Shown here: positions 4,707 through 54,205 of the stretch, piece by piece | Numbering within the stretch: the first letter of the stretch is position 1 | How the letters are laid out: every line of letters starts with the position of its first letter | Source of the DNA: Steroidobacteraceae bacterium | Lineage (GTDB): Bacteria; Pseudomonadota; Gammaproteobacteria; Steroidobacterales; Steroidobacteraceae | NCBI GenBank assembly: GCA_025458905.1 | Contig: JALORN010000029.1 | Span: 1 to 64,000 of the forward strand | DNA length: 64,000 bases | Direction of reading: 5' to 3' | Position numbers and translations under genes: made by a program | Notes under the pieces: generated by a model | Database searches by the model: none | Seen by the model: the letters and a program-made list of their open reading frames with translations, nothing else | Told to the model about the DNA's origin: nothing

Positions 4707-5552
4707 TCACGCCGCTGCGCCGAACGTCGCGACGAACTCGCGGTGCAGCACCAGCGCGGGGTCCTCGCCGGCACGCGGCTGGTCGAGCTGGGACGTGCGA
4801 TAGCCGCTGCCGAGCCCGACCACGCGGACCCGCGTGCCGTCGACGGTGAAGCGCACGCGCCATTCCTTCACGGACAACACGAACGCCGACCCGTCCGGCC
4901 GGATCCGCCGGTAGGGATGGGGCTCGGGGCCCATCGAGAGCGTTGCGAGGATGCGCTCGCGCAGCGCGAGGCCCGAGCGCGACTCGACCCAGGCGATGCG
5001 CGCCTCGACCGACGCCTCGATGTCCACTGCGTGCGAGGCGACCGGGTCCGGCGGCGCAGCGCCCGGCGTCGCGCCCGAGTCCAGCCAGCCGCTGCGGGCA
5101 CCGGGATGCGCGTCGGTGTAGGGCACGTAGGGCTTGATGTCGAGCACCGGCGTGCCGTCGACCAGGTCGACGTCGAGCAGGTGCAGGGTCAGGCCCTCGA
5201 TGCGCTCGAGCCTCAGCGCCGACAGGCCGAGCGGGTTCGGCCGGTGCGGCGCGCGGGTCGAGAACACGCCCTTGCGGCCACTGGTGCTGCGCGGCGGCAG
5301 CACCTTGGGCCGCCAGGAGGGGTTCAGGTGGAACCAGAAGATCACCCAGACGTAGTCCCAGCCGTCGAGGTCCACGAGCGCGTGCTCGAAATTCCTACCG
5401 GGCAGCAGCTCGATGCGGCCGGGCACGCCCCGTGCGGCGCGCGGCTGGCGCGGTGCATCGACCTTGGTGACGAGGCCGGTGCGCGCGTAGCCGATCGGCT
5501 CGAGCGCCAGGCTCGAGGTCGATGCTGGCGGCAGGCTGTCCATCGCGGGCAT
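4707..5552 (-). CDS. trmO: tRNA-Thr(GGU) m(6)t(6)A37 methyltransferase TrmO (TsaA/YaeB family)
   Basis: TrmO-family proteins use SAM to N6-methylate the threonylcarbamoyl-adenosine at position 37 of tRNA-Thr. The 281-aa product carries the family hallmarks in order: an N-terminal PIGYARTGL segment, VPGRIELLP, WDYVWVIFWFH, the signature TRAPHRPNPLGLSALRLE, DLVDGTPVLDIKPYVPYTD, and a C-terminal extension with PYRRI and WRVRF as in the E. coli protein. Start codons at 5552 and 5543 are both possible and neither has a strong ribosome site. It is divergently oriented to the saccharopine-dehydrogenase-like gene, with about 50 bases between the starts. It is a housekeeping RNA-modification gene among metabolic genes. 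Confidence 0.9.
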   Translation of the reverse strand: MPAMDSLPPASTSSLALEPIGYARTGLVTKVDAPRQPRAARGVPGRIELLPGRNFEHALVDLDGWDYVWVIFWFHLNPSWRPKVLPPRSTSGRKGVFSTRAPHRPNPLGLSALRLERIEGLTLHLLDVDLVDGTPVLDIKPYVPYTDAHPGARSGWLDSGATPGAAPPDPVASHAVDIEASVEARIAWVESRSGLALRERILATLSMGPEPHPYRRIRPDGSAFVLSVKEWRVRFTVDGTRVRVVGLGSGYRTSQLDQPRAGEDPALVLHREFVATFGAAA

Positions 5553-5602
5553 TGTAGCCGCGGCGTCGCGGTGCCAAGGTGGCCGGGCAGGAGGTGGTGG
5601 AG

Positions 5603-6934
5603 ATGGCGCAGCCCAGCGGGTTCGTGCCGCGCGCATCGCGTCCGCTCGACCTCGTGGTGTTCGGCGCCTCGAGTTTCGTCGGGCGGCTGCTCTGCGAGGA
5701 GTTGTGGCGTCTGTACGGAAGCGGCCCAGACGGTGGCACAGGCGGCCCATTGCGCTGGGGCCTCGCCGGGCGGTCCCGGGCGCGGCTCGAGGCGGTGCGC
5801 GACGGACTGCGCGCGCGGGCGGAGGGCGAGCCTTCGGCAGCGCGCGGCGCCGCCTCGGGACTGCCCTGTCTCGTGGCGGACGCCGCGGACGCGGGGTCCC
5901 TCGCCGCGCTGTGCCGGCAGGCCCGGGTCGTGGTCTCCACGGTCGGTCCCTATGCCCTGCACGGCGAGCCGCTCGTGGCCGCGTGCGCCGCATCGGGCAC
6001 CGACTACGCGGACCTGACCGGCGAGGTGCCGTGGATCCGGCGGATGATCGAGCGTCACTCGGCCGCGGCGCTCGCCTCGGGTGCACGGCTGGTGCACTGC
6101 TGTGGGTTCGACTCGATTCCGTCGGACCTCGGCGTGCTGTTCCTGCAGCGCGAGGCGCAGCGGCGCCTCGGTGCCCCCTGTGCGCGGGTCTCGATGCGCG
6201 TACGGGCGATGCGCGGCGGCGTCTCGGGCGGGACCGTGGCGAGCCTGCTGAACGTGTTGCGCGAGGCCGCGGCCGATCCAGTGCTGCGCCGCATGCTGGT
6301 CGATCCTTACTCGCTGAGCCCCACCGAGTCGGCGGAGGTCGCCGGGGCCAGGCGCCCCCGGCAGCCGCGCACGCGCGGGGCACGCTTCGATCCCGAGTCG
6401 GGCTGCTGGACGGCGCCGTTCGTGATGAGCGCGATCAACGTGCCGGTCGTGCTGCGCAGCCACGCGCTGCTGGGCCATCCCTGGGGCGGCGGCTTCACCT
6501 ACGACGAGGCGGTCTCCACCGGCCGCGGCCTGCCGGGGCGGTTGCGCGCGAGCGGCCTCGCCGCCGGCCTGGCCGCGTTCACCGTGGCCGGCGCCCTGGC
6601 ACCGACGCGGGCGCTGCTCGAGCGCTTCGTGCTGCCGGCGCCGGGCGAGGGACCTGACGAGCCATCGCGCCGGCGCGGCTGCTTCGACCTGCGCTTCATG
6701 GGCACCACGGCCGATGGCCGGCACCTCGCGGCCCGGGTCACCGGTGATCGCGACCCGGGCTACGGCTCGACCGCGCGGATGCTGGCGCAGGCCGCGACCT
6801 GCCTCACCGAGACCACCGACGAGCCTGCGCGCCGCGGCGGGTCGTGGACGCCGGCGAGCCTGCTGGGCGAGCGACTGATCGAACGCCTCGAAGCTTTCGC
6901 GGGAGTGAAGTTCGAACTGCTGCCGGGCCGCTGA
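5603..6934 (+). CDS. Saccharopine dehydrogenase-like NAD(P)-binding protein (trans-acting enoyl reductase family)
   Basis: The product is 443 aa from ATG 5603, chosen because a perfect AGGAGG lies 8 bases upstream; an in-frame GTG exists at 5579. The N-terminal dinucleotide fold has VVFGASSFVGRLL. It is followed by STVGPYALHGEPLV, GTDYADLTGEVPW and HCCGFDSIPSDLG, the typical succession in the saccharopine-dehydrogenase/trans-acting enoyl reductase family. A hydrophobic stretch in the C-terminal half (ASGLAAGLAAFTVAGAL) suggests membrane association. In actinobacteria relatives work in lipid or polyketide reduction; the substrate here cannot be told. Confidence 0.85.
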   Translation: MAQPSGFVPRASRPLDLVVFGASSFVGRLLCEELWRLYGSGPDGGTGGPLRWGLAGRSRARLEAVRDGLRARAEGEPSAARGAASGLPCLVADAADAGSLAALCRQARVVVSTVGPYALHGEPLVAACAASGTDYADLTGEVPWIRRMIERHSAAALASGARLVHCCGFDSIPSDLGVLFLQREAQRRLGAPCARVSMRVRAMRGGVSGGTVASLLNVLREAAADPVLRRMLVDPYSLSPTESAEVAGARRPRQPRTRGARFDPESGCWTAPFVMSAINVPVVLRSHALLGHPWGGGFTYDEAVSTGRGLPGRLRASGLAAGLAAFTVAGALAPTRALLERFVLPAPGEGPDEPSRRRGCFDLRFMGTTADGRHLAARVTGDRDPGYGSTARMLAQAATCLTETTDEPARRGGSWTPASLLGERLIERLEAFAGVKFELLPGR

Positions 6935-6954
6935 TGCGCGGCCGCCGCACTCCG

Positions 6955-7977
6955 CTAGGACGAGGGCAGGGCGGGCGACCCGGCGAGGCGCGCTGCGATC
7001 CCGGACTCGAGCTCCCGCTGTTCGCGCGGATCGGCGAGCGGCCGGCTCTCCCAATGCGACAGGGGCCAGAGGGTCGCGGCCGCGTAGTCGGGTGCGTGCA
7101 GCTGGGGCTGCAGCTGGGCGAGCCAGTTGCGGACCGGCATCGCACGCTGCGCGCGCAGCCGCTCGAGGTCGATCGTCGCGGTGGCGTGGGCTTCGGCATC
7201 GACGGTCGTGGCGGCGAGCACGCGGCCCTCCGGGTCGATCACCTGCGAGGGCCAGCGGGCCTGCATCTGCGGGCCCGTCGAGTCGAGCGGGCCCATGTTG
7301 GCACTGACGAGGTAGCAGACGTTCTCGTGCGCGCGCACCTCGCGAAGGTGGGTGAAGCCCGAACCTTCGTCGCCGGCGGCAAAGGCCGAGCCGAGCGGAT
7401 GCAGGATCACGTCCGCGCCGCGCATCGCCAGCGCCCGCGCGACCTCGGGAAACTGTGCGTCCCAGGCGATCATCATGCCGAGGCGACCGAGCGGCGTCTC
7501 GACCACCGGGAACAACGACTCGCGGCCGAACAGCTCGACCCAGCGCTGGTACACGTCCCCGGGCCGGGTCTTTGCCGAGAGGGCATAGAGCTTGCGGTAG
7601 CGCAGCACCAGCTCGCCGTCGGGCGCGACCACGAAGCCGGTCAGGAAATGCCGGCCCGGAAACTCCGGCATCGCCTCGAACAACGTCCCGGCGACGTACG
7701 CGTCGAGCTCGCGCGCGAGCCGGCCGATGCGCTCGGTCTCGGGCCCCGGCAGGCGGACGGCCGCGGCATTCCAGTCGGCGAGCGGCACGCCCATCGCCCA
7801 GCCGTGGAACGAGAACTCGGGCAACAGGAACAGGCGGCTGCCGGTCTCGGCGGCGAGGCGACGCAACACGGCCTCGGTGTGGCCGAAGTTGGCGACGAAG
7901 CGGGCCGGGTCGAAGCCTCGGCCGGCGACGAAGCTCGAGGTCAGCGCAAGCTGGACGGCAGTCGCGGAATACTTCAT
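6955..7977 (-). CDS. Nitrilase-superfamily homologue lacking the catalytic Cys
   Basis: This 340-aa protein has the carbon-nitrogen hydrolase fold. The catalytic Glu is present in LPEFSFHGW (E54) and the Lys in LRYRKLYAL (K129). At the nucleophile position, where the family has ICxDxxFPE, this protein reads MMIAWDAQFPEVARAL: the Cys is Ala171 (codon 7465-7467, GCC on the coding strand). The rest of that block and RGADVILHPLG are well kept. It therefore cannot use the usual thioester mechanism and may be a pseudo-enzyme or binding/scaffold protein. The gene follows an amidohydrolase gene on the same strand after 75 bases, so the two are probably co-transcribed. Confidence 0.88.
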   Translation of the reverse strand: MKYSATAVQLALTSSFVAGRGFDPARFVANFGHTEAVLRRLAAETGSRLFLLPEFSFHGWAMGVPLADWNAAAVRLPGPETERIGRLARELDAYVAGTLFEAMPEFPGRHFLTGFVVAPDGELVLRYRKLYALSAKTRPGDVYQRWVELFGRESLFPVVETPLGRLGMMIAWDAQFPEVARALAMRGADVILHPLGSAFAAGDEGSGFTHLREVRAHENVCYLVSANMGPLDSTGPQMQARWPSQVIDPEGRVLAATTVDAEAHATATIDLERLRAQRAMPVRNWLAQLQPQLHAPDYAAATLWPLSHWESRPLADPREQRELESGIAARLAGSPALPSS

Positions 7978-8052
7978 GCGTGACCGGCCTGGACACCCCG
8001 AACGTGGGCCCGGTCGCCCTGCGGGGTGCTCGAAAGGGGCGACGGGCCGCGA

Positions 8053-9234
8053 TCAGGCCGCGGCGCCCTGCTCCTCGACGACCTGCGGACGCGCCGTGTC
8101 TTCCCAGCGGTAGAACTCGAGCGGCGCATCGCGCAGCGTGATCCGGCGTTGCTCGGGCGTCAGGTCCTCGCGCTGGAGGAAGGCTGCGAGCTGGCCGCGC
8201 TCGTAGTCGAGGTGCGGGTAGTCGGCCGAGAACAGCAGGCGGTCCGGCGCCTTCGTCCACTTGATGAAGTCCGGCACGAACCGGTCCTCGGGCTCGAAGC
8301 CGAACCAGATCTGGCGCTGGATGTACTCCTCGGCGTGCAGCTTCATGCCCGGCGCGTGCGCGCGCATCATCTCGGCGAACTTCTCCTGCCGCTCGTGGTA
8401 GCGGTCGACGATCGTCGGCACCCAGCCGACGCCGCACTCGAAGATGCCGAACTTCGTGTCCGGGAAGGTCTCGCAGATGCCGCCGGTGATCAGGTTGTCG
8501 AGCAACTCCATGCCGGCGTAGACCATGCCGAAGATGTCGGTCACCGGCGTCGGCGACTTGCGGTTGAACTGGAAGCCGGGGATCGGGAACTTGATCCAGG
8601 CGTGCAACACGATCGGCACGCCGAGCCTGCCGGCTTCCTCGTAGATCGGGTAGTAGTGCTCCTGCGAGGGGATCACGTAGTCGTCGTCGCGCGCGCCGAG
8701 GACCTCGTTGTTGAGGTAGACCGCAGGGAAGCCGAGTTGCTTCACGCAGCGGCGCATCTCCTTCACGGCATGCTGCGGGTCGGCGGCGTTCAGGATGCCG
8801 ATGCCGAAGAGGCGCGTCGGCTGCCGGCGGGCGAAGTCGTGCAGGTAGTCGTTGTAGGCCTCGGACATGGCGTTACCGAGCGCCACGTCGACGATGCCCG
8901 CGGGCCACCAGCCGGCCTCCGGCATCAGCAGGCTCCGGTCGAAACCCTCGACGTCGAGGAAGTCCTGCACGCGGTAGTCCGGGTCCGTGGCGCCGGGCCT
9001 GCCCTTCGGGCCCGGCGTCTGGTAGCTGCGCGGCTTCGGGGCGACGGTCGCGGGCCAGCGCGGTGGCACGGTGACGCGGCCGATGCTGCGGTAGGTCATG
9101 CCGTTCTCTTGCCAGTGACGCGGCGCCTCCGGATGCGCCAGCAGGTCGGGTCCGAGGTAGCGTTCCCAGATGGCCGGTGTGGTGCTGATGTGCGAGTCGC
9201 TGTCGATCAGCAGGTGCGGGGCGGGCTTGTTCAT
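8053..9234 (-). CDS. Amidohydrolase family protein (amidohydrolase-2/ACMSD-like)
   Basis: The product is 393 aa from ATG 9234. It matches the metal-dependent amidohydrolase-2 family, which includes ACMSD-type decarboxylases and hydrolases acting on aromatic or cyclic acids. Visible features are an N-terminal LIDSDSHISTT (the DxDxH metal site), FDRSLLMPEAGWWP, a mid-protein IVLHAWIKF with a metal-ligand His, and LLFSADYPHLDYERG with the conserved Asp near the C-terminus. Its start lies 136 bases from a divergent LysR gene, the classic arrangement of a regulator with its catabolic target. The Cys-less nitrilase homologue follows. Substrate unknown. Confidence 0.85.
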   Translation of the reverse strand: MNKPAPHLLIDSDSHISTTPAIWERYLGPDLLAHPEAPRHWQENGMTYRSIGRVTVPPRWPATVAPKPRSYQTPGPKGRPGATDPDYRVQDFLDVEGFDRSLLMPEAGWWPAGIVDVALGNAMSEAYNDYLHDFARRQPTRLFGIGILNAADPQHAVKEMRRCVKQLGFPAVYLNNEVLGARDDDYVIPSQEHYYPIYEEAGRLGVPIVLHAWIKFPIPGFQFNRKSPTPVTDIFGMVYAGMELLDNLITGGICETFPDTKFGIFECGVGWVPTIVDRYHERQEKFAEMMRAHAPGMKLHAEEYIQRQIWFGFEPEDRFVPDFIKWTKAPDRLLFSADYPHLDYERGQLAAFLQREDLTPEQRRITLRDAPLEFYRWEDTARPQVVEEQGAAA

Positions 9235-9370
9235 GGCGGTGTCCGCAGGCGAGGGGGGGGCAACCGGCCTGATTCTCGGCCGGCGAGCCGATAAGCGTCT
9301 ATTTCGTGATGGTGGCGTGCGATAGGCTCGCGTTATCACGCAGGCGCCACGGGCGCCGGGCAGGGCCTGC

Positions 9371-10342
9371 ATGGACCTCATCCAGCTCAAGCGCTTCCTG
9401 GTCGCGGCGGACACCGGCAACCTGCGGCGCGCGGCGACGCTCCTGCACCTCAGCCAGCCGGCGCTGACGCAGAGCATCAAGGGCCTCGAGGGCACCCTCG
9501 GCGTCGCGCTGTTCGAGCGCAGTGCGCGCGGCGTCACGCTCACGTCCTCCGGCCGGGCGCTCGTGCCGCGCGCGCGCATGATGCTGAACGAGCGCGAGCG
9601 CATCTCGCGCGACCTCGAGGCCATCCGCAACGAGAGCGCCGCGCGGATCGCGGTCGGCGTCGGCCCGTACTTCAGCCGCCAGCTGTTCCCGGCGGCGCTG
9701 CTGCGAACGCTCGAGGCGCACCCGCATGCCAAGGTGCAGGCCGTCGAGGCACACACCACCGAGCTGGTGCGCATGCTGCAGGAGGGCAGCATCGAGCTCG
9801 CGTTCTGCGTCCGCAACCCGGTGATCGACGACGACCACAGCCTCGAGTTCGAGGCCCTCCATACCGAGCGCTACTCGATCATGGCGCGCGCCGGGCATCC
9901 GTTGTTCCGCCGTCGGCGCGCGACCGATCGCGACGTCGCGGCCCATGGCTGGGTGGTCCACGACTCGCAGGCTACGGCGACCTACCTCGGGCGACACTTC
10001 GAGCGCCTTGGCCTCGAGCCGCCGCGGTGGTCGATCACCACCCTGTCGCTGCCGCTGATGGTGGCGCTGCTGACGAAATCGGACCTGCTGGCGCTGTTGC
10101 CCGAGGACTTCGTGCGCCCGGAGGTTGCGGCCAGCCGGCTGCGGCGGGTCACCGGCCATGGCATCCGCGTCGACGGGGCCGCCGGCATCCTGACGCGCCG
10201 CGACGCGGTGCTAGGCCCGACTGCGAAGGAACTCGTATCGCACCTGCGCAGCGCCTGCGCGGACGCACGCCGCGACATGGCCCGGGTGCATCGCGCGAGC
10301 CGTGGCCAGGGTGAAGGTGCGCCCGAAAACGACCCGCCCTGA
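9371..10342 (+). CDS. LysR-type transcriptional regulator
   Basis: This 323-aa LTTR has an N-terminal helix-turn-helix (residues 1-60, LIQLKRFLVAADTGNLRRAA, LSQPALTQSIKGLEG, LFERSARGVTLTSSGRAL) and a periplasmic-binding-like effector domain from about 90 on. It is divergent from the amidohydrolase and Cys-less nitrilase genes, which are its probable targets. The intergenic region holds a loose dyad CGTGAT (9305-9310) / ATCACG (9335-9340) that could be an operator; this is weak. The gene converges on the GPH symporter gene, and a half copy of the CTGTCCCC repeat lies between them. Confidence 0.92.
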   Translation: MDLIQLKRFLVAADTGNLRRAATLLHLSQPALTQSIKGLEGTLGVALFERSARGVTLTSSGRALVPRARMMLNERERISRDLEAIRNESAARIAVGVGPYFSRQLFPAALLRTLEAHPHAKVQAVEAHTTELVRMLQEGSIELAFCVRNPVIDDDHSLEFEALHTERYSIMARAGHPLFRRRRATDRDVAAHGWVVHDSQATATYLGRHFERLGLEPPRWSITTLSLPLMVALLTKSDLLALLPEDFVRPEVAASRLRRVTGHGIRVDGAAGILTRRDAVLGPTAKELVSHLRSACADARRDMARVHRASRGQGEGAPENDPP

Positions 10343-10357
10343 GCCAAGAGCGAACCC

Positions 10358-10382
10358 GAAAATAAATCTGTCCCCTTTTTTT
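10358..10382. repeat. Half copy of the CTGTCCCC repeat
   Basis: These 25 bases (GAAAATAAATCTGTCCCC followed by seven T) match the outer part of one arm of the inverted repeat at 3853-3937 base for base. Here only one arm is present. It sits between the convergent LysR and GPH-symporter genes, and its T run touches the symporter's TGA stop codon. It may be a solitary member of the same dispersed repeat family, or the remains of a full palindrome. Confidence 0.85.
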
Positions 10383-11734
10383 CAGCTGGCGGCGGCGCGC
10401 AACTCGGCGAGCCGGCGCGCATCCAGGCGGTAGAGCGCCAGCAGCAGGATGCCTGCCGCGCAGCTGACCGCCGGGACCACCGAGACCGCGAAGCGCATCA
10501 TCTGCAGCGCCGACTCGGGTTGTGCGCCCTTGCCCGCGTCGCCCGGCACCAGGCCGGCGGCCGAGAACGCGAAGCCGACCACCAGCGGCCCGACGACGAA
10601 CGAGGTGGTCTGCATCAGCTCGAACCCGCCGACGAACAGCCCTTCACGCCGCTGCCCGGTGGTCAGCCGGTCGAGTTCGATGGTGTCGGTCAGCATCGCG
10701 AGCGCCACCAGCACCGAGCCGCTGCCGACCGAGCCCTGGAAGACCGCGCGCGCGAGGAACAGGGTGTCCGGCTCCTGCGGCGTGGCCAGCATCCACGACA
10801 GGTAGCCGACCAGGTTGCCGAGCAGCAGCCCGATGAACACGGTACGGCGCTCGACGCGCCGCAGCACCAGGCTCCAGAACGGCACTGCCGCGATCCCGAC
10901 CAGGTTCGAGACCAGGTTGTACCGGGCCAGCGCGCCCTCGCCCTTGCCGAGCACGTAGCTCATGAAGAACAGCATCGCGGCGCCCGTGAAGGCCGTGCCG
11001 AGCTGCAGCGTCATCTTGGTCAGCAGGATCGTCAGGTAGGGCGTGTTCGACGCCACGGTCCGGAACCACGCCCGCGCATCGAGCGTCTCGGCCGAGCGCT
11101 CGGTGACGCGCGCCCGTCCCGTCGCGAACACCACGCAGAGCATCGTGCAGCCGACGACCGCAGCGGCCGCGAAGGACATCGTGGAGTAGGCCGCCCGGTC
11201 ACTGCCGAGCAACGCCACCAGCGCCGGTGCGCCTGCGGCGATCACCACGCCCGAGGAATAGACGAAGAACGTGCGCCAGGCCATCACCGAGGCCCGCTCG
11301 CCGTAGTCGTCGGTCATCTCGGTGCCGAGGGCCATGTAGGGGATGCTGAACACCGAGTAAGCGGTGCAGTACAGGAGGAATGCACACAGCACGAACAGGT
11401 ACAGGGAGTTGCCCTCGAGCCCGAGCGGCGGGTTGAAGACCGCGACCACCGCGAGCGGGCAGAGCAGCGCGCCCCCGAGCAGCCACGGGCGCCGCCGGCC
11501 CCAGCGGCTGCGCGTGCGGTCGCTCAGCGTGCCGATCAGCGGGTCGACGGCGGCGTCGTAGAAGCGCGTGACCGCGAAGATCGTGCCGGCGATGGCAGCC
11601 GGCACGCCGGCGTGACGCACCAGGAAGAACATCGCGAACAGGTTGACGAGGTAGAGCATCGACGTGGTGCCGAGGGCACCGATGCCCCAGCCTGCCTTCA
11701 GCGCGGCCGGCAACCGGTTGTCGTTCGCCTGCAT
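10382..11734 (-). CDS. MFS transporter, GPH (glycoside-pentoside-hexuronide:cation symporter) type
   Basis: The product is 450 aa with about twelve hydrophobic segments. The family features are KAGWGIGALGTTSMLYLVNL at the N-terminus, FYDAAVDPLIGTLSDRTRSR followed by WGRRRPWLL, and FSIPYMALGTEMTDDYGERA. This is the MelB/GPH symporter signature set, so cation-coupled uptake of a glycoside or similar solute across the inner membrane is expected. It is a paralogue of the transporter at 38182-39591. Its start lies 160 bases from the divergent PhyH gene. The stop codon overlaps the T run of the repeat at 10358-10382. Confidence 0.87.
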   Translation of the reverse strand: MQANDNRLPAALKAGWGIGALGTTSMLYLVNLFAMFFLVRHAGVPAAIAGTIFAVTRFYDAAVDPLIGTLSDRTRSRWGRRRPWLLGGALLCPLAVVAVFNPPLGLEGNSLYLFVLCAFLLYCTAYSVFSIPYMALGTEMTDDYGERASVMAWRTFFVYSSGVVIAAGAPALVALLGSDRAAYSTMSFAAAAVVGCTMLCVVFATGRARVTERSAETLDARAWFRTVASNTPYLTILLTKMTLQLGTAFTGAAMLFFMSYVLGKGEGALARYNLVSNLVGIAAVPFWSLVLRRVERRTVFIGLLLGNLVGYLSWMLATPQEPDTLFLARAVFQGSVGSGSVLVALAMLTDTIELDRLTTGQRREGLFVGGFELMQTTSFVVGPLVVGFAFSAAGLVPGDAGKGAQPESALQMMRFAVSVVPAVSCAAGILLLALYRLDARRLAELRAAAS

Positions 11735-40869: not shown

Positions 40870-43004
<2,135 letters not shown>

Positions 43005-43143
43005 TGCTGGGCTTCCCCTGGTTGGTGGGCGTCGGCGCATTCGCCGCGCGACAGGCTGATTTCTGGGGACGGAATGTAGCAGAGAGGGCGCCCCCGTGGC
43101 GCCCCCGACGCGCACCGTAAGGCTGCCCGGCAGACAGATGTTG

Positions 43144-45780
<2,637 letters not shown>

Positions 45781-45948
45781 TGGATCAGGGATTCCCCGGC
45801 ACGAATCTCGCGGGCAGCAGTTCGTAGCGAGTATCGGCGGCGCCGTGAGCCGACTTGAACCGAGTGTGTGAGCCAGTTCCGTGGCACCCGATCAAGAAAC
45901 GGGCGCAGTTGGCCGTCAACCTTCGCGGCAAGCCACACAGTGTCCACG

Positions 45949-46803
45949 ATGTCCCCACACGCTCCGCTTCCGTCGTCACCCGAGGCCGCCAGGACTCGCG
46001 TGCTCGTCGTCGAGGACAATGCGGTCAACCAGCAACTGGTGCTCGCGATGCTGGCGCGCGGCGGCTACGTCGCCGAGGTCGCCGCCGACGGGCACGAGGC
46101 GCTGGCGCTGCTGCGCGCGCGGCGCTTCGACCTCGTGCTGATGGACCTGCAGATGCCCGGGATGGATGGGCTGCAGGCCACGCGCGAGCTGCGCCAGCCC
46201 CGGTCCGGCGTGCTCGACCCGGCGGTGCCGGTGATCGCGCTGACGGCCAACGCCTTCGCCGAGGATCGCGCGCGGAGCTTCGCCGCCGGCATGAACGATT
46301 TCCTGACCAAGCCGATCGACCCACGGCGCCTGCAGGACACGCTGGCCAAGTGGCTGCCGCCGCAGCCCGTCGCAGGCGCGGCGGCCGCAGTGGCCCGGGC
46401 GGCCTCGGTGGCCCACACCGCGGGGAGCGCGGAGCCCGACGACCTCGAGGTGCTGGATCGTGTGGGCCTGTTCGACCGGGCGATGGACGATGCCCAGCTC
46501 GCGGCGGACCTGGTCGCCGCCTTCCTGCACGAGTGCCCGGCGCTGCGCGACGCGCTGCACCTGGCCATCGAACGGCACGACGTGATCGCCACCATGAACG
46601 TCGCGCACACCCTCAAGGGTGCGGCCGGCAACGTCGGCGCGCAGCGGGTGGCCCGCATCGCCGCGCAGCTGGAGCGGCAGGCGGCCGCAGGCCCGGCGGC
46701 GCGCCTCGGCGAGCGTCTCGCCGAGCTCGAGCAGCACCTCGCGGAGTTCGAGACGGCCGCGCTCGCGATGTGCACCGGCCTCGCGCAGGCGGGCGCGCCG
46801 TGA
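45949..46803 (+). CDS. Response regulator with REC and Hpt domains
   Basis: The product is 284 aa from ATG 45949. GTG 45868 would add a non-homologous-looking extension, and no strong ribosome site is seen. The receiver (about 15-140) is complete: VLVVEDNAVNQQLVL, LVLMDLQMPGMDG with the acceptor Asp, IALTANAF and FLTKPIDPRRL. The C-terminal Hpt domain carries the phospho-His in NVAHTLKGAAGNVGAQR. It should take phosphate from a kinase and pass it on through Hpt, probably from the divergent hybrid kinase whose own receiver is defective. Its stop overlaps the start of the next gene (GTGA). Confidence 0.92.
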   Translation: MSPHAPLPSSPEAARTRVLVVEDNAVNQQLVLAMLARGGYVAEVAADGHEALALLRARRFDLVLMDLQMPGMDGLQATRELRQPRSGVLDPAVPVIALTANAFAEDRARSFAAGMNDFLTKPIDPRRLQDTLAKWLPPQPVAGAAAAVARAASVAHTAGSAEPDDLEVLDRVGLFDRAMDDAQLAADLVAAFLHECPALRDALHLAIERHDVIATMNVAHTLKGAAGNVGAQRVARIAAQLERQAAAGPAARLGERLAELEQHLAEFETAALAMCTGLAQAGAP

Positions 46804-48722
46804 GCGCCTCGGGACAGCCGATCCTCGAGGAACTGCGTGGCACCGGCCGGCTGCCCTCGCCGGGCGGCGTCGCGCTCAAGCTGATGGAGCTGACGCGGCG
46901 GGAGGACGTGAGCGCGGGCGAGCTGTCGCGGACGCTGCAGATGGACCCGGCGCTCGCCGGCCGGGTGCTGCGGGCCGCGAACAGCGCGGCCCTCGGCGGG
47001 CGCGCGGCGGTGTCGATCGCCGATGCCGTGGTGCGCGTGGGGTTCGAGGGAGTGCGCCGGCTCGCGATGAGCTTCTCGCTGCTCGAGCGCAACGGCGCCG
47101 GTGCCTGCCGCGAGTTCGACTACCGCGGCTTCTGGTCGCGCTCGCTCGCCGCTGCGGTGGCGGCCGAGCGCCTCGCGCGCGAGACCCAGGCCGCCGCGGC
47201 CGACGAGGCGTTCACGCTCGGGTTGCTGCACGACGTCGGTGCGCTGGCGCTCGCGACCGTGCACCCGAAGGAATACGGCTACGTGCTGGGCGCGACCGGG
47301 CAGTCGGACTGGCAGCTGCGCGAGCGCGAGCGCGAGGTGTTCCGCGTCTGCCACCGCGAGCTGACCGGGATGATGCTCGCCGACTGGCAGATCCCGCGAC
47401 CGCTGGTCGAGGCAGTGGTCGGGCGTGGCCTCGTCGAGGCGGGAGCGCCCCCGCGCGCGCAGCGGCTCGCCGACCTGGTCGAGCTCGCGGTGACCACCGG
47501 GCGCCTCGTGGCGGCCGAGAAGCCGCTGGCGCGGGAGGTGTTCGACAGCCTTGGCCCGCTGCTGCAGCGGCTCGGGCTCGCGCGCCCCCTGTTCGAGCTG
47601 CTGCTCGAGGACGTCATCACCGCCTGGCGCGAATGGGGCGTGGAACTCGACGTCGAGACCCGCGACACCTCCACGGTCGAGTTGCTGGCGCTGTACGACG
47701 GCGACTCACCCTCGACGCGCGCCGCGGCGGATGCCGCCATCGCCGCGTCGCGGGAGCCGCGGCTGCGCGTCGTGCTCGCCGAGGACACCGAGTCGCAGCG
47801 CATCGGGATGACGCGCCTGCTCGAGGCCCAGGGCTTCGAGGTACGCGCGGTGGTCGACGGGCATGCCGCGCTCGAGGCGCTGCGCGAGCAGCCGGTCGAC
47901 CTGCTGGTGACGGACCTCGTCATGCCGCGGCTCGACGGCATCGCGCTGTGCCGTGCGGTCCGCCAGTCGCCCGCGAACGACGGCTGCTACGTGATCGTGT
48001 TCACCGGCCACGGCGACGAGGACAAGCTGGTTCAGGCCTTCGAGGCTGGCGCCGACGACTACCTCACCAAGCCGGTGGTGCGCCGCGAGCTCGAGGCGCG
48101 GCTGCGCGCGGCGCGGCGCGTGACGGCACTGCAGCGCGCGCTCGCGCGCGAGGCCGACTCGCTGCGCGAGCTCAACGCGCGGCTCGAGGTCGCGAACCGC
48201 CAGCTCGCCGCGGCGGCGCTGACCGATTCCCTGACCGGCCTGCCGAACCGTCGCCACGTGCTCGAGCGCCTGCGCCAGGAGTGGTCGGCTGCCGCGCGCC
48301 ACCAGCGCCCCTTCGGCGTGGTGTTCGTCGACCTGGACCACTTCAAGGCGGTCAACGACGTGCGCGGCCATCATGCCGGCGACATCGTGCTCGAGCGCGT
48401 CGCCCGCGTGCTGCGGCGGGTGATCCGCACCGAGGACACTGCCGGCCGCTTCGGGGGCGAGGAGTTCGTGGTGCTCTGCCCGGGCTCGAACCTGCCGCAG
48501 GTGGCGCGCGCCGCGGAGCGCATCCGCGTGGAGCTCGAGGCCGAGGAGTTCACCATCGGCGGCGAGTCGTGGCGCGTGACGGCGAGCCTCGGCGTCGCGG
48601 CGGTGGGCGCCGTGCGCGGCGAGTCGAGCTGGGACGAGGCCCTGCGCCGCGCGGACGCCGCGCTCTACCGCGCCAAGCGGCTGGGTCGCAACCGGGTGGT
48701 CAGCGCGGCGGCGGTGGAGTGA
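46800..48722 (+). CDS. HDOD-REC-GGDEF protein (diguanylate cyclase)
   Basis: The 640-aa protein starts at GTG 46800, overlapping the previous stop by four bases. Domains in order: HDOD (about 10-275; GELSRTLQMDPALAGRVLRA, FTLGLLHDVGALALATVH); a complete receiver (about 320-440; VVLAEDTESQRIGM, DLLVTDLVMPRLDG, DDYLTKPVVR); a coiled linker; and GGDEF (about 475-635; LTDSLTGLPNRRHVLERL, FVDLDHFKAVND, GRFGGEEFVVLCPGS). The active site is GGEEF, which supports c-di-GMP synthesis. An RTED sequence five residues before it is an RxxD inhibitory site. Phosphorylation of the receiver probably controls the cyclase. Confidence 0.93.
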   Translation: MSASGQPILEELRGTGRLPSPGGVALKLMELTRREDVSAGELSRTLQMDPALAGRVLRAANSAALGGRAAVSIADAVVRVGFEGVRRLAMSFSLLERNGAGACREFDYRGFWSRSLAAAVAAERLARETQAAAADEAFTLGLLHDVGALALATVHPKEYGYVLGATGQSDWQLREREREVFRVCHRELTGMMLADWQIPRPLVEAVVGRGLVEAGAPPRAQRLADLVELAVTTGRLVAAEKPLAREVFDSLGPLLQRLGLARPLFELLLEDVITAWREWGVELDVETRDTSTVELLALYDGDSPSTRAAADAAIAASREPRLRVVLAEDTESQRIGMTRLLEAQGFEVRAVVDGHAALEALREQPVDLLVTDLVMPRLDGIALCRAVRQSPANDGCYVIVFTGHGDEDKLVQAFEAGADDYLTKPVVRRELEARLRAARRVTALQRALAREADSLRELNARLEVANRQLAAAALTDSLTGLPNRRHVLERLRQEWSAAARHQRPFGVVFVDLDHFKAVNDVRGHHAGDIVLERVARVLRRVIRTEDTAGRFGGEEFVVLCPGSNLPQVARAAERIRVELEAEEFTIGGESWRVTASLGVAAVGAVRGESSWDEALRRADAALYRAKRLGRNRVVSAAAVE

Positions 48723-48726
48723 GGCC

Positions 48727-49995
48727 ATGAGCGACGCTCCCCCGCCCCGGCAGCGGCCCGACGCGACGGCCGCGACGCCGGTCCCTGCGCGAGTCTCGGT
48801 CGCGCGCCAGCCGGTGTTCGACGCGAAGCTGCAGGTGCTCGCCTGGGAACTGCTCTACCGCGATGCGCCCGGCAGCGAGGAGGCGCGGATCGAGGACGGC
48901 TCGGTCGCGACCGCGCGCGTCGCGATCGCGGCACTGATGGACATCGGCCTCGAGCGCCTGGCGGGACAGGCCCCAGTGCACGTCAACGTGCCGGAGGCGC
49001 TGGTGCGGCGCGCCGCCGAGTTCCCGCTGCCGCTCCCGCCGTCGCGGGTGGTGCTCGAGGTGCTCGAGGACGTGCGCGCCGACGACGAGGTGCTCGCGGG
49101 CCTGCGGCTGCTGAAGGCAGCTGGCTACCGGCTCGCCCTCGACGACTTCACCAGCGCGGACGCGGACGAGCGGCTCCTCGCCCTCGCCGACTCCGTCAAG
49201 GTGGACCTGCTGGCCGAGCCGGCGGCGACCCTCGAGTCCACCGCGAAGTCGCTGCGCGCCCGCGGCCTCGAGCTGATCGCCGAGAAGGTCGAGACGCGCG
49301 AGCAGTTCGAGCGCTGCGTCGCGCTCGGCTTCACCGGCTTCCAGGGCTACTTCCTGCAGCGCCCCGAGACCTTCACCGGCCAGCGCGCCCCGGCCCTGCG
49401 CCTGCCCGCGATGCAGGTGATGGCGGCGCTGCAGCAGCCGGACTACACTGTGGAACAGCTCGAGCGGCTGGTCTCGCAGGACCTCGGGCTGGTCCACCGG
49501 CTGCTGCGCTGCCTCAACAGTGGCTACTACAACCTGCCGCGGCGCGTGACCTCGATCCGCCAGGCGATCGTGGCGCTCGGTCGCGAGAACCTGCTGCGGC
49601 TCTGCGCCGCGGTGGCGCTGGCGGAGTTCAGGGACCGACCGGACTGGCTGCTGGTCAACGCACTGGTGCGCGCACGGATGTGCGAGCTGCTGGCGCCGCA
49701 GGCGGGGCGCGAGTCCAGCGGGTTCTTCTTCGCCGGGCTGCTGTCGCACCTCGACGCGCTGCTCGGCCTGCCGACCCCCAAGGCGATCGGCGACCTGCCG
49801 CTGACGCCGACGGTCGAGCGCGCGCTGGTCGCCGGCGCCGGCCCGATCGGCGCCGCGCTGCGCGCGATCCTCGACTGGGAGCAGGGCCGGTTCGAGGCCT
49901 GTCGCGCCGCCGGCCTCGACGAGGGCCAGCTGCGCCGGGCCTACCTCGAGGCGGTCGAGTGGGCCGAGCAGGTCCGGCCGCTGCTGAAGGCCTGA
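48727..49995 (+). CDS. EAL-HDOD domain protein
   Basis: The 422-aa protein starts 5 bases after the cyclase gene, with GAGG upstream. Residues about 20-235 form an EAL-like domain (VARQPVFDAKLQVLAWELLY, VHVNVPEAL, YRLALDDFTSADADERLL, KVDLL, ELIAEKVETREQF) in which the EAL signature is ELL. Residues about 240-400 form an HDOD domain. This architecture is the YuxH/CdgJ type, where the EAL part is normally inactive as a phosphodiesterase and may bind c-di-GMP or proteins. Sharing a transcript with an HDOD-REC-GGDEF protein suggests that the two act together. Confidence 0.9.
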   Translation: MSDAPPPRQRPDATAATPVPARVSVARQPVFDAKLQVLAWELLYRDAPGSEEARIEDGSVATARVAIAALMDIGLERLAGQAPVHVNVPEALVRRAAEFPLPLPPSRVVLEVLEDVRADDEVLAGLRLLKAAGYRLALDDFTSADADERLLALADSVKVDLLAEPAATLESTAKSLRARGLELIAEKVETREQFERCVALGFTGFQGYFLQRPETFTGQRAPALRLPAMQVMAALQQPDYTVEQLERLVSQDLGLVHRLLRCLNSGYYNLPRRVTSIRQAIVALGRENLLRLCAAVALAEFRDRPDWLLVNALVRARMCELLAPQAGRESSGFFFAGLLSHLDALLGLPTPKAIGDLPLTPTVERALVAGAGPIGAALRAILDWEQGRFEACRAAGLDEGQLRRAYLEAVEWAEQVRPLLKA

Positions 49996-51858: not shown

Positions 51859-52632
51859 TCAGAGCCGCAGGCGCTCGAAGTAATCGCGGACCCGCTCGCG
51901 GTAGCCCTCGCTGCTGGTCACCGTCGCGCCGCCCGCGAGCACCAGGATGAAGTCGCCGCGCGGGGTGCGGCTGACCTCGCGCACGTGCGCGACGTTCACC
52001 AGGCAGGAGCGCGAGATCCGCAGCATCGTCTCGCCGGCGAGTGCCTGCTCGGCCTGGGCGAGCGTGCTGCGTGCATGGTACACGTCGCGGCCGACGCGGA
52101 TCCTCACGTAGTTGCGGTCCGACTCGACCAGCTCGATGTCGGCGACGTCGAGCATGTGCAGCGCACCGTTCGACTCGGCGAGCAGCCGGGGGCGCCGGTC
52201 GACGGGGGGCCGCGCGAGGCGCTCGAGCTGCGACAGCACGGCGTCGAGCGCCGCCTGCCGCTCGGCCGGCGGCGCGACGCGGCGCGCGCGCACGCGCTCG
52301 AGGGTGCGCCGGAAGCGCGCCTCGTCGAACGGCTTCAGCAGGTAGTCGGTCGCGTTGACCTCGAACGCCTCGAGCGCATAGTGGTCGTAGGCGGTCACGA
52401 ACACGATCGCCGGCAGCGTCGCCGGTTCCAGGGACCGCGCGATCTCGAGGCCGTTCATCGTGTCCATCTGGATGTCGAGGAACAGGAGGGCGGGGGGCCG
52501 CGCGCGGATCGCCTCGAGCGCGACGCGCCCGTCGCCGAACTCGCCCACGACGCGCAGGTCCTGCTCGGCCGCACAGCACTCGCGCAGGGTGCGGCGGGCC
52601 GCCGGCTCGTCGTCGACGATGATGACGTCCAT
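51859..52632 (-). CDS. LytTR-family response regulator
   Basis: This 257-aa regulator has an N-terminal receiver (DVIIVDDEPAARRTLRECCA, LLFLDIQMDTMNGLEIARSL with the acceptor Asp, FVTAYDHYALEAFEVNATDY, LLKPFDE) and a C-terminal LytTR DNA-binding domain (about 155-255; IELVESDRNYVRIRVGRDVY, LRISRSCLVNVAHVREVSRT). LytTR regulators bind promoters of their own circuit and nearby genes. It follows its partner kinase gene after 25 bases. The pair corresponds to the YehT/YehU or AlgR/AlgZ type. The direct target is not evident; UrcA is the nearest divergent gene. Confidence 0.93.
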   Translation of the reverse strand: MDVIIVDDEPAARRTLRECCAAEQDLRVVGEFGDGRVALEAIRARPPALLFLDIQMDTMNGLEIARSLEPATLPAIVFVTAYDHYALEAFEVNATDYLLKPFDEARFRRTLERVRARRVAPPAERQAALDAVLSQLERLARPPVDRRPRLLAESNGALHMLDVADIELVESDRNYVRIRVGRDVYHARSTLAQAEQALAGETMLRISRSCLVNVAHVREVSRTPRGDFILVLAGGATVTSSEGYRERVRDYFERLRL

Positions 52633-52657
52633 CGCGTGACGGTCCTCCGCCCGCCGC

Positions 52658-53911
52658 TCAGCCGGCGGCGACGGCGTCGCGGCGCGCGGCGGGCAGCTCG
52701 CGCAGCGCCGGCAGCGTGACCTCGCCGAGCCACGCGGGCCGCGGCGATCCGTCGAGCGGTCCGGCGCGCAGCGAGGCGCGGCCGCCGAGCTGCACCGCGA
52801 GCCGCTCGCGCACGTTGCGCAGGCCGATGCCCTCGCGCCCGAGCGCCCGGCCGGCCGCGACGTCGTTGGCCACCCCGATGCGGATCGTCGCGTCCGCACC
52901 GTCGCCGCTGGCCTCCACCGTCACGCGGATCCCGACCGGCCCGTCGTGCCCGGCGAGACCGTGCACCACCGCGTTCTCGACCAGCGGCTGCAGGATAAGG
53001 CTCGGCACCCACACCGACGGCAGCGAGCCCGCCGCCGGCAGCTCGATCGAGAGGCGGTCGGCGAAGCGCTTCTGCTGCAGCTCCAGGTAGAGCTGCACGA
53101 ACTGCATCTCGTCGGCGAGCCGCGTCCACTCGCGCTCGCCCGCCGCCAGCAGCCGGCGCAGCAGGTCGGCGAGCTGCACCACCATCGCCTGCGCGGCCGG
53201 CGGGTCCCAGGCGATGTTGCCGCGGATGGTGTGCAGCAGGTTGAAGAGCGTGTGGGGCGAGAGCTGCATTCGCAGCGCCGCGAGCCGCGCAGCGGACCAC
53301 TGGCGCTCGAGCGCGGAGACGCGCAGCTGCGTGTCGCGATAGCGCTCGTAGAGGACGAAGCCGGTCAGCAGCGCGAGCCCGAAGCCATATTTCAGCAGGA
53401 AGTCGGTGAAGCTCGCGATCCACTGGGTGAACATCTTCTCGTTGAGCCAGAACGCCAGCGTCAGCGGGTCGTCCCAGTGGCCCTTCGACATCTCCTTGCC
53501 GGAGAGCAGGTGCTGCGACACGAGGATCGCCGGGCGCGCGAGCAGCGCGAAGCCGAGGCCCATCAGCAGCTGCACGGGGAGCTTCCACCACAGTGGCTTC
53601 CAGTCGAGGCGCAGCGAGGCGGCGTAACAGGCGAGCAGCAGCGGGAACAGCAGCGCGTGCTGCAGCACGCGCGACTGCCAGGGCGCGAACACCAGCTCCT
53701 GCGTGAACGCCGACAGCGTGGATCCCATGCTGTAGGCGTACAGCACGGCCGACAGCGTCACGTAGCTCCAGAACAGGAACACGATCGCCACGAACTGCCA
53801 GGGCGCGAGGCAGCCGGCGATGCGCCGGCCGGCCCTGGCCGCCTGGGGCAGCGGCAGGCCCCGCGGCGGGGCGGGGGTCGCGGGCGCGACCTCGATCGGC
53901 CTGGCACTCAT
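52658..53911 (-). CDS. LytS/YehU/AlgZ-type sensor histidine kinase
   Basis: The 417-aa kinase starts at ATG 53911. A hydrophobic N-terminal part with about four spans (FVAIVFLFWSYVTLSAVLYA, VLQHALLFPLLLACYAASL, LLMGLGFALLARPAILVSQ, DFLLKYGFGLALLTGFVLYE) leads to the His_kinase domain with LRMQLSPHTLFNLLHTIRG, whose His is the phospho-acceptor. The usual N of NPHF is Ser here. The ATPase domain has VPSLILQPLVENAVVHGLAG (N box) and GREGIGLRNVRERLAVQLG (G box). It pairs with the LytTR regulator downstream. The 294 bases before its start hold no other gene. Confidence 0.92.
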   Translation of the reverse strand: MSARPIEVAPATPAPPRGLPLPQAARAGRRIAGCLAPWQFVAIVFLFWSYVTLSAVLYAYSMGSTLSAFTQELVFAPWQSRVLQHALLFPLLLACYAASLRLDWKPLWWKLPVQLLMGLGFALLARPAILVSQHLLSGKEMSKGHWDDPLTLAFWLNEKMFTQWIASFTDFLLKYGFGLALLTGFVLYERYRDTQLRVSALERQWSAARLAALRMQLSPHTLFNLLHTIRGNIAWDPPAAQAMVVQLADLLRRLLAAGEREWTRLADEMQFVQLYLELQQKRFADRLSIELPAAGSLPSVWVPSLILQPLVENAVVHGLAGHDGPVGIRVTVEASGDGADATIRIGVANDVAAGRALGREGIGLRNVRERLAVQLGGRASLRAGPLDGSPRPAWLGEVTLPALRELPAARRDAVAAG

Positions 53912-54205
53912 GGCACCTAGGGTAGCGCAGGCGCCGGCGCGCGGCCCGCTCCGGGGCGCGCGGCGGGACCGACGCGTCGGCCGCCGGGACGGGAGCCGGC
54001 ACCCTCGGGGACGAGGCCGGCAGCCTGCGGGACGGGGCGGCGAGGAGGCAGGTACGGACGCGTCGTCCGCAGGGACCGGTCCGCGGCCCGCCGGCAGACG
54101 GCACGGGCACGCCGGAGGTTTCATCTACGCCACGGATCGCGCGGTCGAGACTCGAAGCGCCCGCAGCCGGACCCGACCCAACCCATGCACGACAGGAGAA
54201 ACGCC

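Follow-up and report, generated by a model that had tools for sequence, protein, structure and literature searches.

A candidate MmoS/MmoQ-like phosphorelay to a c-di-GMP synthase in a Steroidobacteraceae genome, with its kinase divided between two divergent genes

MmoS-MmoQ, of the Methylococcus mmo locus and its copper switch, is the described system closest to the gene cluster presented here. Among the genomes searched, a pair of this type is found at locus L276 (genome G559), which is considered to be an mmo locus because an MmoQ-like HDOD protein (520 bits to the MmoQ chain) is encoded together with two Phenol_Hydrox genes and a Cpn60 gene. Methylococcus is a gammaproteobacterium and G559 shares its class with the window, which points to a probable gammaproteobacterial origin of the window. 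At L276, the kinase is a single polypeptide with the domain order PAS-PAS-GAF-HisKA-HATPase-REC-REC-Hpt, and its REC-Hpt coding region is directly upstream of the cyclase gene (14 bases, using the first start codon). In Caulobacter, binding of c-di-GMP to a pseudo-receiver gates the kinase ShkA, whose path includes a functional receiver as well (PMC7010744, PMC12632262). ZpdA and CdgJ of Vibrio cholerae are phosphodiesterases with an N-terminal EAL and a C-terminal HDOD domain, and ZpdA is reported to be active (PMC12607878); EAL-HDOD is also a common form in Acidithiobacillus (PMC6416229). The HDOD-containing protein SadB binds c-di-GMP, the binding domain not being evident there (PMC6543031), and the HDOD domain of DVU0330 displays no activity on c-di-GMP (PMC4114195). 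In the passages covered, mostly from outside the subscription journals, no function of an HDOD-REC-GGDEF protein is described, and nothing joins MmoS/MmoQ, HDOD-GGDEF proteins and methanotrophs.

The cluster is situated in a 64,000 nt stretch of DNA (termed the window) from a draft genome of 4.28 Mb in 109 contigs, which is 85.8% complete and 2.6% contaminated. Its genes, termed K, A, B and C, are listed in Table 1.

Table 1. Features of the cluster and their positions in the window.
Feature	Positions	Strand	Domains and length	Basis
K, hybrid histidine kinase	43144-45780	minus	PAS-PAS-HisKA(H522)-HATPase-pseudo-receiver	
K/A divergent intergenic region	45781-45948		168 bp	sequence
A, predicted stand-alone phosphorelay intermediate	45949-46803	plus	REC(D66)-Hpt(H220), 284 aa	Pfam, residues
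B, putative MmoQ-type diguanylate cyclase	46800-48722	plus	HDOD-REC(D372)-GGEEF with RxxD site, 640 aa, GTG start	Pfam, residues
C	48727-49995	plus	EAL-HDOD, 422 aa, starts 4 bases after B	Pfam, residues

A first-pass annotation of the window had described A, B and C as a coupled unit. Their positions, the 4-base overlap of A and B (GTGA, 46800-46803) and the 4-base gap between B and C (48723-48726) are all reproduced. All Pfam matches for these three genes exceed the curated cut-offs: Response_reg (4e-30) and Hpt (7e-14) in A, HDOD (1e-46), REC (6e-28) and GGDEF (8e-46) in B, and HDOD (4e-18) and EAL (2e-13) in C. The annotation was thus correct in assigning an HDOD domain to C, and also in describing B as having GGEEF (at 552), an RxxD site (at 543) and a full receiver, with D372, T402 and K424 intact. 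K scores strongly for HisKA and HATPase, has H522, and shows two hydrophobic stretches (19-residue windows from about positions 18 and 199). Its C-terminal receiver has Ala785 in place of the phospho-accepting Asp and Gly819 in place of the Thr, with K841 retained; this agrees with the pseudo-receiver earlier noted in the divergent kinase. All residues of a His-Asp-His-Asp chain are present, i.e. H522 of K, D66 and H220 of A, and D372 of B. A simple scan of the cluster finds no sigma-70-like promoter and no intrinsic terminator, and no sigma-70-like site in the K/A intergenic region.

B and the L276 protein share the HDOD-REC-GGDEF order, each has an intact receiver Asp and an intact GGEEF, and in both loci a REC-Hpt coding region is directly upstream of the cyclase. 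In a search of PDB sequences, MmoQ is the best match to the HDOD part of B (E-value = 1.6e-42). Unlike MmoSQ, where a single HK-REC-REC-Hpt kinase is directly upstream, the REC-Hpt of the window is a gene of its own, and the kinase core is encoded divergently, together with a dead receiver. No monooxygenase is found by Pfam among the eight flanking open reading frames scanned (two of which are parts of one receptor). On balance, K-A-B is probably a phosphorelay of the MmoS/MmoQ type that leads to a c-di-GMP synthase; its kinase is made up of two divergent genes, and C is located beside it. The four-gene set is, on sequence grounds, a local assembly and a variant of the MmoSQ kind, with the step from A to B being supported by other genomes.

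This support comes from 62 HDOD-REC-GGDEF loci (8 from a class search, 36 and 18 from two orders). One of these, L297, was set aside because an in-frame stop splits the gene (an Hpt-ending kinase adjoins it), and 61 were counted. In 27 of the 61, a gene with an Hpt domain is directly upstream on the same strand. The upstream genes are tandem-receiver hybrid kinases ending in REC-REC-Hpt in 26 of the 27, the mmo locus L276 among them (that of L329 is cut by the contig edge), and in L272 the upstream gene encodes Hpt alone and overlaps the cyclase by 4 bases. A 4-base overlap is present in 8 of the 27 junctions, using mechanically assigned starts. The 27 loci belong to families f135, f151, f182 and f199, and all 27 cyclases fall in one 35-row branch of the tree (support 100, starred); thus they may have one evolutionary origin. 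Of the other 34 loci, L331, L330 and L343 have an upstream kinase or receiver gene without Hpt, and L275 has an Hpt kinase two genes upstream; a contig end is near in a few (L320, L328, L330, L348). Every one of the 27 cyclases with an Hpt gene upstream retains its receiver Asp, versus 26 of the 34 without (8 losses). The chance that all eight losses would fall among the 34 is about 0.006 for independent loci, which these are not. All 27 also have GGEEF and RxxD. A stand-alone REC-Hpt gene, as in the window, is beside none of the 61 cyclases. The pairing with Hpt genes, together with the retention of the Asp, is the main evidence that the Hpt of A feeds the receiver of B, and this predicted relay step is well supported. 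It is also the part that stands of a complete circuit proposed in the first-pass annotation; the four genes as one unit hold only in part, as described below.

No full-length match to B at E ≤ 1e-45 is present in the 395 other genomes of the order (three candidates scored per genome). Where a B match is found (48 genomes of the order), the aligned part is REC-GGDEF, and a search of genome contigs with B retained 80 loci, nearly all with the REC-GGDEF or GGDEF part only. L100 was considered as a full-length B and rejected, as its HDOD-GGDEF and GGDEF-REC parts are in separate open reading frames. Among 368 other genomes of the class, 7 together gave 8 full-length matches. Two of these seven lie in orders where B matches at E ≤ 1e-70 are present in 35 of 121 and 17 of 100 genomes, counts that include the two centre genomes and, among the 17, one partial match.

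Alignments to relatives over the full length of B, e.g. positions 15–636, confirm the order HDOD, receiver, GGDEF. In the tree, B groups with HDOD-REC-GGDEF proteins and not with plain REC-GGDEF proteins (SH-aLRT 92, not starred); it should be noted that B has a long branch and an odd letter make-up, and that its top single identity (44%) is to a plain REC-GGDEF protein. An origin of B by fusion of an HDOD domain to the family's own REC-GGDEF is not supported by this grouping. With respect to the clade that has an mmoS-like kinase upstream, B is unplaced in the tree (p-AU = 0.109 for B inside it). B has a His at position 144, the only His at that HD position among 62 aligned HDOD-REC-GGDEF proteins; the others have mostly Ala or Ser. 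The first look of the B search gave 93 candidates in the own genome versus 3–57 in the 20 same-genus genomes listed, and the own genome is also larger (4.28 Mb versus 1.4–3.6 Mb in 23 same-genus genomes).

K and A do not appear to be a literal split of one tandem-receiver kinase. The kinase core of K groups with single-receiver kinases, and its nearest relative is a paralogue on contig C31 of the own genome (61% identity; support 96, starred); a split is not supported on these grounds. The A receiver has its highest identity (58%) to the second receiver of the REC-REC-Hpt kinase at L221, from genus g5; the nearest by path are single-receiver kinases of g5, which is of the own family, and the starred set containing A (support 98) comprises both single-receiver kinases and receivers followed by an Hpt. 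This is compatible with A alone having arisen from the REC-Hpt end of a kinase of the family. All 27 tandem-receiver kinases compared that adjoin HDOD cyclases (L275 and L297 included, L329 left out) retain the Asp of their first receiver, and therefore the dead receiver of K is not a trait of MmoS-type kinases.

The own family has HK-REC-REC-Hpt kinases paired with REC-GGDEF genes (L178–L196), which resemble the cluster in having tandem receivers, an Hpt domain and a receiver-cyclase next door. They differ in that their cyclases are without HDOD and form a branch separate from B, and in that the genes are mostly convergent, some being on the same strand.

Like ShkA, K is a kinase that carries a pseudo-receiver and whose path likewise includes a functional receiver. 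The ShkA pseudo-receiver, REC1, is placed between the catalytic domain and a functional receiver; in K the pseudo-receiver is the last domain, and the part of ShkA that it matches (positions 370–483) is REC2. Its nearest match in the sequence search is a histidine kinase receiver (7c1j), and ShkA REC1 is not among the matches listed. ShkA-like gating of K by c-di-GMP thus lacks sequence support; by analogy with ShkA the dead receiver could gate the kinase, but its sequence does not resemble REC1.

The EAL domain of C was earlier termed degenerate. It is atypical: the motif is ELL, the DFGxG loop is absent, and Pfam covers profile positions 112–236 only. Its residues, however, do not mark it as inactive. 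We take the catalytic EAL set to be E, N, E, DD, K, E and Q, with E41 and N87 of C assigned by known motifs; the ten columns compared were drawn from C itself. C, with its EAL and HDOD domains, holds the whole set (E41, N87, E111, D139, D140, K158, E186 and Q206), and solved EAL phosphodiesterases have identical residues at the positions aligned with E111, the DD pair, K158, E186 and Q206. A dead EAL domain is thus not supported. Among 20 relatives of C from other genomes, one (L215) is without most of the EAL positions, one (L211) is without the last Glu, and in several the Asp of KxD is replaced by Glu or another residue. C has the domain order of ZpdA and CdgJ, with which it was compared by domain order and EAL positions alone, and its activity is a predicted one; an EAL-HDOD phosphodiesterase of Bacillus, YuxH/PdeH, is a further protein of this kind. 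The most likely role of C is to bind or degrade c-di-GMP, whereby it would counteract B or serve as its read-out.

Relatives of C are found in 49 of 396 genomes of the order, the own genome included (48 of 395 others). B is beside C in none of 29 non-self loci with flanks of up to 1.5 kb; one of these (L033) has a histidine-kinase-like stretch with 30% identity to K. In 20 wider loci, from 55 non-self places, no REC-Hpt, HDOD-REC-GGDEF or HisKA kinase gene is near C; a HATPase-REC gene is present in L207 and L208, and receiver or GGDEF genes in some loci. The check proposed for the unit had been that its genes be co-conserved, and none of the 20 has a K, A or B gene beside C. GGDEF genes are within about 6 kb of the C homologue in six of the 20 (L203–L206, L209, L212).

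The corresponding site in the same genus displays a similar picture. In G309 (L215), a TonB receptor, a C-like gene, ADH and SDR genes correspond to the immediate flanks in the window, without K-A-B; the C-like protein has 41.5% identity to C. In G391 (L201), a closer relative of C (53%) precedes ADH and SDR, and the receptor is absent. In eight of eight further stretches, the TonB receptor adjoins the ADH end, and domain models detect no REC, Hpt, GGDEF, EAL, HisKA, HATPase or HDOD there. K, A and B are therefore all absent from the site in 10 same-genus stretches; these are 10 of 16 non-self ADH places. In L198–L200 and L202, also of this genus, C is among other genes. Thus K-A-B was either inserted here or lost elsewhere, beside a separately carried C; no composition boundary is seen at the K-A-B insert. 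Relatives of K (L280–L284) are likewise without such neighbours, and co-conservation of the four genes is not supported.

The proposed mechanism is as follows. K would sense a signal via its membrane-anchored N-terminus and PAS domains and would autophosphorylate on H522. Since its own receiver is without the acceptor Asp (A785), phosphate would pass in trans to D66 of A, from there to H220 of the Hpt domain, and then to D372 of B. The phosphorylated receiver would activate the GGEEF domain, with RxxD providing product inhibition. Coupled translation of A and B may help to fix their ratio. C, carried elsewhere in the genus without K-A-B, would now likely be read from the A-B operon. We infer every phosphotransfer step, the cyclase activity, the activity of C and the co-transcription from sequence comparisons.

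The place of K in this scheme is open to another explanation. A and B may be a true relay pair while K is not their kinase but a divergent neighbour with a decaying receiver, A being charged by other hybrid kinases. The receiver of K without its Asp fits this, as do the relatives of K at L280–L284, which have no A, B or C neighbours, and the closeness of the K core to a paralogue in the own genome. The own genome also has 63 matches to B, mostly receivers or GGDEF domains, and with so many other receivers the specificity of K for A is not assured. Against this, K lies divergent to A, the three genes are jointly absent from the site in the 10 same-genus stretches examined, and its HisKA and HATPase domains score strongly with H522 of K present. 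We regard this explanation as somewhat unlikely.

The connection of C with the other genes is also open to other readings. K-A-B may be beside C by chance, with no functional link to it, and the site with a C-like gene and no K-A-B, the relatives with neither, and the 20 wider loci would all agree with this. The 4-base gap, however, makes a transcript shared by B and C likely, GGDEF genes are near C homologues in six of the 20 loci, and an EAL-HDOD gene adjoins an HDOD-REC-GGDEF gene in another genus; a chance neighbourhood thus seems rather unlikely. That genus is represented by L332 and L333, where the EAL-HDOD gene (33%–35% identity to C) is divergent from the HDOD-REC-GGDEF gene, and overall an EAL gene is within 3 kb in seven of the 61 loci. 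Grouping of B with L332/L333 is rejected (p-AU = 0.00026, from a quickly built tree in which B has a long branch), and the EAL-HDOD/HDOD-REC-GGDEF neighbourhood therefore probably arose more than once; this repeated juxtaposition favours a working link between such proteins. It also keeps alive the idea that the HDOD domains pair. In its strong form, the cluster would be mainly a c-di-GMP turnover pair of B and C, complexed via HDOD-HDOD contact, with the phosphorelay input secondary. The probably independent juxtapositions would support this, but L332 and L333 are of one genus and B is beside C in none of the 29 narrow or 20 wider loci, and we consider it quite improbable. A further proposal, of a kinase relay re-wired in trans (its own receiver killed, the phosphate carried by a separately translated REC-Hpt coupled to the cyclase) in which the HDOD domains of B and C join cyclase and phosphodiesterase in a complex with its c-di-GMP output under the control of phosphorylation, is unlikely. 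An MmoS/MmoQ-like relay from K through A to B is the reading we prefer.

This relay offers a concrete wiring for HDOD-REC-GGDEF proteins. By appearance, MmoQ-type proteins are intact cyclases under phospho-control, and the role of MmoQ in the copper switch thus becomes a question of c-di-GMP. If the parallel is true, the MmoS-MmoQ copper switch of methanotrophs would also signal through c-di-GMP, since all 27 Hpt-upstream cyclases retain the phospho-Asp together with GGEEF and RxxD. Many genomes within a single order have the MmoSQ arrangement, and in at least one instance (L302) no monooxygenase is found among the neighbour proteins scanned; MmoSQ-type pairs thus exist away from sMMO genes. 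The mmoS-mmoQ-like pair of L302 (positions 5441–10902) has a 4-base overlap and is located among RmuC, aminotransferase, phosphorylase and subtilase genes.

Several other observations concern the surroundings of the cluster. The TonB-dependent receptor gene of the window (40870-43154, minus strand) is in two overlapping frames, with the plug in one and the barrel in the other, whereas its homologue at L215 (4694-6958) is a single open frame of 754 codons; the split is due either to a frameshift or to an assembly error. A second two-component pair near the cluster consists of LytTR response regulator and His_kinase (PF06580) genes (window positions 51859-54124, minus strand). A further HDOD locus in the own genome (L236, G000:C53, positions 6040-9196) encodes a receiver protein and, after it, two HDOD proteins in tandem. 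In many of the loci L178–L196 and L218–L234, PAS(n)-HisKA-HATPase-REC-REC-Hpt kinases adjoin REC-GGDEF genes, and REC-EAL and PAS-HATPase-REC genes are frequently close by; this is a recurrent c-di-GMP module of the family, with variable first receivers.
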